Positions 19,030 through 21,756 of a DNA stretch of 35,810 nucleotides are shown in pieces. Made by a program: the position numbers and the translations under genes. This DNA is from a bacterium (lineage in GTDB: Bacteria > Patescibacteriota > Doudnabacteria > UBA920 > 2-01-FULL-46-14), in assembly GCA_030700065.1 (NCBI GenBank), contig JAUYKH010000010.1:1-35810 (forward strand), given 5' to 3'. A model generated the notes under the pieces. The model was not told the DNA's origin and made no database searches. It worked only from the letters and a program-made list of their open reading frames with translations. Position 1 is the stretch's first letter; the number at the start of each line of letters is the position of its first letter.

Positions 19030-19893
19030 ATGCCAACAGACATGGTGCGTCAACAGGAAGAAGGGTTCGGCCACGATTATGGGCTGATCCACGAGATGAT
19101 CGTCACCGGGCGAAAGGTCGGCGCTGGGCAGGGATTCTACTCTGCCTTGGCACACAACGAAGAGTTGTTTGCTAGGGTTGTGGAGTTTGTCAGAAACGGC
19201 GGAAATGTGACTGCCAATGCGGAAGCTACCGTTTCTTCAAGGCCAGTTCTTGCCCACGAAGTTGAGCATCTGATTTCGGGGATGTTCATTCCGGCTGACA
19301 AACAGCTTGGGCTTGTCAGGGAGCGTAATGTCGAGCGGCGCTGGGGTTTTACTGAGGAAGATTTTACCAAGCTCGGGCCGGCGCCGGTATGGCCAAGCGG
19401 TAAGATTTCCGCGGTCATTCTTGAAGTAAGCCTCGACACCATCGAGAAGACCCTTGAGGAAGCCTGGCTCTTCGCGCACTCTGCACAGGTTGATAACTGG
19501 CGCTGGGAAGAGGTAAAGTCCGACCCTGGGCATTTGCGTTTGTTTCCCGGGATCGAGCACAAGCGTGGCCTGGTCTGGCGCGTGGTTGACCTGGCGGCCA
19601 ATTGGGACAAAAAAGACGGGATCCGCCCCAAGGATGTCCGCAATACTGAAAAGTCCCCGCATTCGGCCGTCCTCTGGGCCGCCTCGTACTTCCCAAAGTG
19701 GATCCAAGCCATGGACGGGACCATTGTTCCTTATGTCTGGATTCCAGGCTACGAGCTTAGTGTCTCCGGTAGCGAGCCTTGGTCGCGCGTGCCGAACTTG
19801 CACTTCGATCGCGTTGCTCGGCGGATCGGGCTCGATGCCGATGGCTACGGCCTTCGCTACGGCTACTATGCTGTGCCGGAGTTTCGGGAGTAA
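19030..19893 (+). CDS. DGR target (variable) protein, C-terminal VR
   Basis: C terminus VSGSEPWSRVPNLHFDRVARRIGLDADGYGLRYGYYAVPEFRE* is an A-mutagenised copy of the TR at 20221; no signal peptide or TM evident. Confidence 0.93.
   Translation: MPTDMVRQQEEGFGHDYGLIHEMIVTGRKVGAGQGFYSALAHNEELFARVVEFVRNGGNVTANAEATVSSRPVLAHEVEHLISGMFIPADKQLGLVRERNVERRWGFTEEDFTKLGPAPVWPSGKISAVILEVSLDTIEKTLEEAWLFAHSAQVDNWRWEEVKSDPGHLRLFPGIEHKRGLVWRVVDLAANWDKKDGIRPKDVRNTEKSPHSAVLWAASYFPKWIQAMDGTIVPYVWIPGYELSVSGSEPWSRVPNLHFDRVARRIGLDADGYGLRYGYYAVPEFRE
19755..19892 (+). other. DGR variable repeat (VR)
   Basis: ungapped alignment to 20221-20358 (offset 466): 25 mismatches in 138 columns, all opposite TR adenines. Confidence 0.97.
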
Positions 19894-19919
19894 TAGACCT
19901 CGGACTTTGGCTGTTTGGA

Positions 19920-19970
19920 ACTTGGAAGATCTAGGGTTTTTGACCCTCGGTCTTCCAAGTCCTTTTTTAT
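19920..19970 (+). terminator. nested hairpin terminator just 3' of VR
   Basis: acttggaaga-tct-agggt-ttttg-accct-cgg-tcttccaagt + ccttttttattt; starts 28 nt after the VR. Confidence 0.85.
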
Positions 19971-19975
19971 TTGTC

Positions 19976-19981
19976 TATAAT
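19976..19981 (+). promoter_or_regulatory. possible -10 box (TATAAT) for a TR transcript
   Basis: perfect TATAAT after the terminator T tract; -35 match is weak. Confidence 0.3.
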
Positions 19982-20070
19982 CACTGCAAGAGAGAATAGG
20001 TTTATGAATCCCGATGGAATGATCCGCGGATCACCGAAATCTCGTCTGCCTAGCAATACAACCGCCGGAG

Positions 20071-20095
20071 TTTTGTCATCTACTAGATGACAAAA
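20071..20095. repeat. 25-nt perfect palindrome (12-nt arms) upstream of TR
   Basis: TTTTGTCATCTA-C-TAGATGACAAAA. Confidence 0.9.
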
Positions 20096-20192
20096 GCGTG
20101 TGGTGCGATTGGTGGAGTACTCCGTGTCTTTGTTTTGGGATGAAGTTTTAAACTTGCATCCTGCATAAAATACAGGGAATGGGTGTGCCTAT

Positions 20193-20210
20193 TTCCAGTG
20201 ACTTCTGGAA
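20193..20210. repeat. hairpin immediately 5' of TR
   Basis: TTCCAG-tgactt-CTGGAA. Confidence 0.5.
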
Positions 20211-20220
20211 GGACAAAGAT

Positions 20221-20358
20221 ACAAAATGTCTCCGGTAACAAGCCTTGGTCGAACGTGCCGAACTTGAACTTCAATCGCGATAATCGGCAAATCAAGCTCA
20301 ATGCCAATGACTACGGCAATCGCAACGGCAACTATGCTGTGCCGGAGTTTCGGGAATA
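20221..20358 (+). other. DGR template repeat (TR)
   Basis: asparagine-codon rich (NKPWSNVPNLNFNRDNRQIKLNANDYGNRNGNYAVPEFRE in the VR frame); matches VR except at adenines. Confidence 0.97.
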
Positions 20359-20365
20359 TCCACCG

Positions 20366-20398
20366 AAAAACCTCGTCCCCAAAACCAGGGCGAGGTTT
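20366..20398 (-). terminator. hairpin between TR and the bAvd 3' end; possible minus-strand terminator or TR-RNA structure
   Basis: AAACCTCG (20368-20375) / CGAGGTTT (20391-20398), with TTTTT on the minus strand. Confidence 0.6.
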
Positions 20399-20399
20399 G

Positions 20400-20784
20400 C
20401 TAAGATATGGATTTTATCCAGCCGCCAAGCATTTTGCCTATCGTATGGAGTTTGGATTGAATTTCCAAATATGACTCATTGGACAGGCAATCACAGTCTT
20501 TGCTTAATCGGATAAGAATTCGTAGCGAGTCTAGTTTAACACTGGCTTCCCGCAACTTTTCAACTTTGATATTTTGATTAGAATGAGATGATGCGGTCAG
20601 GGTTAATTCAAATAGTGAAAGTAGGGTACTTGAGCAAGTTTGCCCTAAGCTATAGCGTTGAGATTTTGGAAAACGCAAATTTATTTTGTGCCAAATGCGA
20701 TAAGTTTCATATAGTGCATGGACAATAGGAATGTCAACAATCCCAAAACCATGAGGGGGGGGGGTTAGAGGCCGAGTAAGTCAT
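20400..20784 (-). CDS. bAvd-like DGR accessory protein (S23/four-helix bundle); start codon reachable only if the G10 tract is shortened by 1 (mod 3)
   Basis: manual reverse translation gives ...HGFGIVDIPIVHALYETYRIWHKINLRFPKSQRYSLGQTCSSTLLSLFELTLTASSHSNQNIKVEKLREASVKLDSLRILIRLSKDCDCLSNESYLEIQSKLHTIGKMLGGWIKSIS*; bAvd-like LxxRLxK...IGKMLGGWIKS ending. Confidence 0.8.
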
Positions 20785-21756
20785 GAATTATTTGATCGAA
20801 TTTGTTCGATAGATAATATTTTTGTTGCCTGGCAGAAGTTTGCGCGAGGTAAACGATTGCGAAGTGATGTCATGGCATGGGAAAGGTCGCTTGAAGTCAA
20901 CCTTTTCGAGTTGCGAGATGAGCTTTCTACCAATAGATATAAGCATGGTCATTATACACCATTTACTATCCATGATCCCAAAGAAAGAAGGATTCACAAG
21001 GCAGGGGTTAGGGATCGAATCGTGCACCAAGCAGTTGTTAATATCCTCGAGCGAATTTTTGAATGCCAGTTTATTTTTGATAGTTTTTCTTGCCGGAAGG
21101 GGAAAGGAATCCATGCGGCTTCAAAACGGCTGCAAAAATTCTTGGTAAAGGCAAGCAAAAACTATACCCGAACTGTGTATGCTTTGAAATGTGATATAAG
21201 GAAATTTTTTGATCGGGTGGATCATAACATCCTTTTAGAGTTGATCAGGAGAAGAATTGATGATAACGATACCACCAGTCTCTTAACGAACATAGTAGCT
21301 AGTTTCAATGCAACTTCTGCCAAGGGTCTGCCGATTGGTAATTTGACCAGCCAATTGTTTGCCAATATTTATCTGCATGAACTTGATTATTTTGTGAAAC
21401 ATATTTTACGAGAAAAGTGGTATCTGCGGTACTGCGACGATTTTATAATTATTAGCTATTCTTGGGGTCATTTGTTGAATATTTTAGAAAAGATTAAATA
21501 TTTTTTTCGGCAACGACTCAAACTGGAAATTCATCCCAACAAAGTTTCGATTAGATCCTGGGGCCAGGGGATCGATTTTGTCGGCTATGTACATATGCCT
21601 AACTGCGTGATTGTTAGGACAAAAACAAAAAACCGCGTGCTGCGTCGAGTCAATCAAAAAAACCTTGTTTCTTATATGGGCGTTTGCAATCACGCCGATA
21701 CATTTGAACTCCAACAGTTACTGTTTAATAAAGTCGGGAAAACTGCTAAACTATAG
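20751..21756 (+). CDS. DGR reverse transcriptase; as given, open only from 20755 (track start TTG 20857), and ATG 20751 is out of frame by one
   Basis: ELFDRICSIDNIFVAWQKFARGKRLRSDVMAWE...KCDIRKFFDRVDHNIL...GLPIGNLTSQLFANIYLHELD...RYCDDFIII; IGxxxSQ is typical of DGR RTs. Confidence 0.92.
20755..20764. repeat. G10 homopolymer at the RT/bAvd 5' junction
   Basis: catgaGGGGGGGGGGttag counted directly. Confidence 0.95.

Follow-up and report, generated by a model that had tools for sequence, protein, structure and literature searches.

A frame-shifting repeat shared by divergent avd and reverse transcriptase genes suggests a phase-variable mutator in Patescibacteria diversity-generating retroelements

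Described retroelements and the Doudnabacteria locus

In the BPP-1 diversity-generating retroelement (DGR), avd, the template repeat (TR) and the reverse transcriptase (RT) gene brt follow each other in this order on one strand, and in the reconstituted system inactivation of bRT, Avd or TR each reduces activity to ~1e-9 (PMC12875486). The natural regulation of DGRs has been named as an open question in the same work. For a DGR clade restricted to Patescibacteria (clade 2), lower activity has been reported (Roux et al., 2021; PMC8144416). Cellular DGRs are less active according to that study, which leaves open whether this results from stronger control of the RT or from stronger selection, and does not mention avd in its main text.

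Here we analyze a DGR in a 35,810-nucleotide stretch of a Doudnabacteria genome (contig JAUYKH010000010.1 of assembly GCA_030700065.1), hereinafter the window. The initial annotation described a complete DGR located in a glycan operon and noted that DGRs are reported to be common in CPR lineages. The DGR assignment holds, being supported by TR differences from the variable repeat (VR) that are confined to adenines, a DGR-type RT and an Avd protein in a Patescibacteria genome, and the element indeed sits among glycosyltransferase genes. The claim of completeness has to be corrected: avd was overlooked, and both RT and avd are shut off by a G10 tract as assembled. What stands out in the architecture is the pairing of divergent avd and RT genes with a frame-shifting repeat. 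The locus comprises the following features:

19030..19893, plus strand: target gene, 287 aa, with VR at its 3' end
19755..19892, plus strand: variable repeat (VR), from a repeat finder and alignment to TR
19917..19962, plus strand: strong hairpin with T-run just 3' of VR (z -4.25)
20221..20358, plus strand: template repeat (TR), from a repeat finder and alignment to VR
20368..20398, plus strand: hairpin between TR and the avd stop (z -3.68)
20400..20784, minus strand: avd (bAvd family), between TR and RT, head-to-head with RT and antisense to the TR-RT direction
20751..21756, plus strand: DGR reverse transcriptase; its frame is open from 20755 onward, with the stop at 21756
20755..20764, no strand assigned: G10 tract (C10 on the avd strand), inside the 5' coding ends of both RT and avd

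The ungapped VR/TR alignment at an offset of 466, when re-run, again yielded 25 mismatches in 138 columns, all 25 at TR adenines (15 A>G, 6 A>T and 4 A>C; TR contains 42 adenines), and the first mismatch at any other base is found downstream at 19893, beyond the repeat. Within the 132-nt core (19761-19892), all 21 mismatches are opposite a TR adenine (hypergeometric chance 1e-14), and the earlier count of 15 amino-acid-changing codons in the core was reproduced. The pair was also recovered independently by the repeat finder, and no other VR for this TR was detected across the 798-kb genome. The hairpin that follows VR is presumably a terminator and/or the DGR stem-loop, and the one next to TR might be a TR-RNA spacer element or an avd terminator. 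The target protein has no sequence match in Pfam, NCBIfam or the PDB, and its AlphaFold model (pLDDT 65) has no PDB fold match at E < 1, so that we do not assign it a C-type lectin fold; homologs of the target gene adjoin other Patescibacteria DGRs (L159-L162, L164 and L004).

The RT carries the motifs GLPIGNLTSQ and YCDD. A profile of 12 RTs has its best PDB match in 8ub7_A (deposited under the title 'Reverse transcriptase'), which we take to be the BPP-1 DGR reverse transcriptase, with 210 bits vs 116 bits for the best group II intron RT, and the window RT falls in one tree together with phage DGR RTs. Matches to a defense RT (PADLOC 'RT' and DRT) were attributed to generic RT similarity, the TR/VR pair and Avd deciding for a DGR. 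The Avd protein matches PF22296 (bAvd) with 68.5 bits (cut-off 40) and NF033474 (DivGenRetAVD) with 76.6 bits, just below the cut-off of 80; a single-sequence search of the PDB with Avd returned noise only. The 5' ends of avd and RT overlap by 34 bp.

The G10 tract and the avd and RT reading frames

The G10 tract within this overlap is the longest homopolymer in the window. A pattern search of the genome detected approximately 21 G/C tracts of at least 8 nucleotides, only three of which reach at least 10, the DGR tract being one of these. Read from the ATG at 20751, the RT terminates after 5 codons at G10, but is 334 aa long at G9 and 335 aa at G12. Avd, read from the ATG at 20784-20782, similarly terminates after 16 codons at G10 and would extend to 127 aa at G9 and 128 aa at G12. 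At G10, there is no in-frame ATG, GTG or TTG for either the conserved RT N-terminus or the Avd domain. The conserved region of the RT begins at ~20788, whereas the listed RT open reading frame (20857-21756) begins at a TTG because the conserved N-terminus, LFDRICSIDNIFVAW, lacks an in-frame start at G10. Thus, the element as assembled is off on both the avd and the RT sides. Both ATGs are in register with the opposite reading frame, and therefore the phases of avd and RT are locked in the window.

Two G tracts elsewhere in this genome lie next to genes for secreted proteins. One is a G13 (positions 1501-1513 of L320, G000:C37:43376-46376) located ~50 nt upstream of a long gene whose product has a signal peptide (MKKFNKISTVILSLALILGITG...), a possible case of promoter-type phase variation of a surface protein. 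The other is a G9 (positions 1501-1509 of L327, G000:C30:2596-5450) shortly upstream of a secreted-protein gene (MRKQVVLGIFAASLVVTGLLG...).

We propose, with a probability of roughly 0.85 and judging from sequence comparison, that the window element is a Patescibacteria-type DGR with a phase-variable mutator. One simple-sequence repeat, here G10, sits within the first codons of avd and RT. Under this model, replication slippage in populations would alter it by one unit, such that at two lengths in three the start codons and the domains would no longer share a frame. For the window, both proteins would be on at G9 or G12, and both off at G10 or G11. In the on state, RT and Avd would copy the TR RNA with adenine errors and the cDNA would rewrite VR; in the off state, activity would presumably be lost and the current VR allele frozen. 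The likely benefit would be bursts of diversification, after which a good variant could be locked. No earlier report of a repeat-switched DGR turned up in the literature searched, from which a Nature Microbiology study of CPR DGRs (2017) and a DGR survey in NAR (2018) were absent. The phase variation mentioned in DGR-titled papers is that of the Bordetella host, and among the other publications, taken at the level of their titles, none points to homopolymer or slipped-strand control of DGRs.

Junction repeats in related DGRs and their turnover

RT relatives were gathered within the phylum, in viral contigs (IMG/VR) and in named genomes that include Doudnabacteria, Uhrbacteria, Saccharibacteria, Yanofskybacteria, Kazan and many more. 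After removal of duplicates, 288 loci remained, 208 of them, nearly all from Patescibacteria, with avd divergent to RT; several same-order relatives of the window's genome are identical to Doudnabacteria records (L016/L187, L017/L202, L021/L198 and L115/L230), placing the host close to this group. The final counts are based on repeat thresholds that we set at G/C runs of at least 7, A/T runs of at least 9, dinucleotide repeats of at least 11 nt, and tetra- or pentanucleotide repeats of at least 4 copies.

A frame-shifting repeat is present at the junction in 133 of the 208 divergent loci, compared to 1/56 among loci with the canonical avd-TR-RT order, which come mostly from phages (Fisher p 3e-19; the loci share ancestry, so that this and the other p values given here overstate independence, and kinship is addressed by the count of changes on the RT tree below). 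Only 13 of 3766 other windows of the same size from the same loci carry such a repeat, and dinucleotide shuffling predicts 4.2 junction repeats per 208 loci vs the 133 observed. At the chosen thresholds, the junction repeat is missing in 75 of the 208 loci. The repeats are mostly G7-G13 (mode 9-10), and also include (GA)n, (GT)n, ATTG, TTCG and pentamers, for example, (TGTCC)8; the units are 1, 2, 4 or 5 nt long, and no tri- or hexanucleotide repeats were found at the junction or in the RT body of the 208 loci.

In 20 of the 208 loci, a repeat is found inside the RT, near query codons 184-200 or 130. Among the 202 divergent loci where the RT match extends past residue 250, 130 have a repeat at the junction only, 19 in the RT only, none in both places and 53 in neither (p 5e-10). 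The RT of the 19 RT-only loci is in one frame in 8 cases and split into two frames at the repeat in 11, close to the one third in frame expected for random frames; this splitting of the frame explains why RT matches often break near residue 184. A G10 tract 362 nt before the RT (-362), inside the avd region, not at its start, of a Peribacteraceae locus (L169), possibly marks a third switch position.

Homopolymers are error-prone in sequencing and assembly, and in the window a change of one base restores both avd and RT, so the tract could be a misread G9 in an ordinary, constantly expressed DGR. We consider this quite unlikely. A G9 tract, too, would be slippery and would occupy the conserved place; across the phylum, this place is taken by di-, tetra- and pentanucleotide repeats with as many as 23 units, and homopolymer errors cannot account for an RT whose two halves lie in different frames on either side of a dinucleotide repeat.

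In nearly all junction loci, the repeat separates the avd ATG from the Avd domain. No other start lies between the repeat and the domain in 93 of the 133 loci; in the remaining 40, a possible start (GTG and TTG included) follows the repeat before the avd domain, and the gating is therefore weaker. For the RT, a possible start of its own after the repeat is present in 82 of the 133 loci and absent in 51. In 32 loci, avd and RT both depend on the repeat and a single phase can be defined for each; in 31 of these, one and the same phase opens the two genes, although the 32 loci are not independent because the arrangement may be inherited. Of the 74 junction loci that could be resolved unambiguously, 14 (19%) have avd ON, which is below one third (p 0.009); either the OFF state is favored or some starts are misassigned.

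These starts bear on the possibility that the repeat sets promoter spacing for the two divergent genes, which would make the phase variation transcriptional rather than translational. The position of the repeat between two divergent starts, the possible downstream RT start in the 82 loci and the poly-G tracts just upstream of the two secreted-protein genes in the window's genome are all compatible with such a role. Nevertheless, the repeat lies inside the avd frame, there are no tri- or hexamers, and the other place where it occurs is far within the RT gene, all of which makes promoter spacing an unlikely explanation, although promoter-spacing and frame effects could coexist.

Runs of one base can also make ribosomes or RNA polymerase slip. 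If such slippage at the tract were programmed, as ribosomal or transcriptional frameshifting, Avd and RT would be kept at a low but constant level, and leaky expression in the off state is plausible. However, no slippery motif or frame is fixed, as both repeat type and frame differ between sister loci, and some loci are already in frame. Repeats of 4-5 nt are not known to act as frameshift signals. We therefore regard frameshifting as very unlikely, and favor translational phase variation of the mutator.

The repeat turns over, while the flanks remain conserved, in comparisons between species other than that of the window. Sister loci carry G8 vs (GA)12 at 87% identity (L022/L217), (ATTG)7 vs (TTCG)9 at 85% identity (L063/L191) and, in the closest informative pair, (CT)23 vs (CT)14 at 92% DNA identity (L034/L163). 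A single Saccharibacteria family has (CT)23, (CT)14, (CT)7, G11, G8 and G10 at the junction. A search for repeat variants within a species in two families found none, the hits being either identical records or more distant species. In a tree of 260 RTs (FastTree; 69 of the 256 inner branches well supported), the divergent arrangement can be accounted for by one change, as opposed to at least 46 changes of repeat type and 36 of repeat place. It thus seems that selection keeps a frame-shifting repeat rather than one particular sequence.

In 147 loci examined for TR/VR-like pairs, 122 have a pair in which all differences are at TR adenines. Most of these pairs have near-fixed spacing, with TR ~500 and VR ~950 nt before the RT; a handful, located elsewhere and with hardly any differences, may be repeats that arose by chance. 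The related DGRs thus look recently active, rather than being relics. Because the majority of avd frames are in the off state as assembled, the elements might otherwise be taken for decaying pseudogenes with broken frames, but the domains on either side of the repeat are open and conserved, such A-only pairs persist, and the break falls at a slippery repeat in a few fixed places. Hence, decay is highly improbable.

Taken across the phylum, we consider a two-tier form of hypermutation likely, whereby the mutator of Patescibacteria DGRs (Avd, often together with RT) would itself be a contingency locus, kept phase-variable by selection as the repeat keeps being replaced, and the two divergent genes would be opened in one common phase by a single bidirectional repeat.

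The Saccharibacteria family with the six junction repeats listed above also includes 23 RT loci (L335-L357) for which the search returned no avd head-to-head with RT; these have no junction repeat. Two of these DGR-type RTs without a head-to-head avd have poly-G inside the RT (G13 at +502 in L348 and G9 at +500 in L357), so that the RT-internal switch may predate the divergent clade or extend beyond it. Patescibacteria-type DGRs with divergent avd were also found in a Planctomycetota bin (L222, with a G8 at the junction) and a Chlamydiae bin (L172), through either misbinning or transfer. Patescibacteria-type DGRs also occur on contigs filed as viral in IMG/VR; the junction tract is G9 in L239 and G11 in L249, and nine others (L240-L248) have divergent avd and no junction repeat. 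Several genomes (G214, G330, G189 and G071) encode between two and five DGR RTs, which often have separate repeats, and different DGRs in one cell could be turned on and off independently.

Comparison with BPP-1, clade 2 and contingency loci

If the proposed switch is real, a slippery repeat in the mutator genes would answer the question of regulation for roughly two in three members of a very large DGR group. A random switch would be placed over a targeted mutator, bursts of variation would be followed by a locked state, and tract length should predict VR diversity. Furthermore, avd and RT in such genomes may be annotated as fragments or pseudogenes, or reported as absent.

The window element resembles the BPP-1 DGR (mtd/avd/TR/brt) in the adenine-only TR/VR differences and the presence of Avd and a DGR RT, and possibly in the hairpin after VR, which could be only a terminator. 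Unlike in BPP-1, avd of the window is antisense, located between TR and RT and head-to-head with the latter, with a repeat in the 5' ends of both genes; no junction frame-shifting repeat was found in the phage DGRs compared. With the clade 2 DGRs (Roux et al., 2021; PMC8144416), the element shares the Patescibacteria host, a cellular rather than viral context and a target without a recognizable domain, an agreement that is limited to taxonomy and the domain-poor target. A phase switch would fit the lower activity of this clade.

The contingency loci of Neisseria, Campylobacter and Haemophilus (e.g., PMC5320596 and PMC8355987) are similar in having G/C tracts or short repeats with a unit length not divisible by 3 in the 5' coding region and frame-based ON/OFF switching. 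These loci usually switch a surface structure or a methyltransferase, whereas here the switch would act on a retroelement mutator and, in a further difference, one tract can gate two divergent genes.
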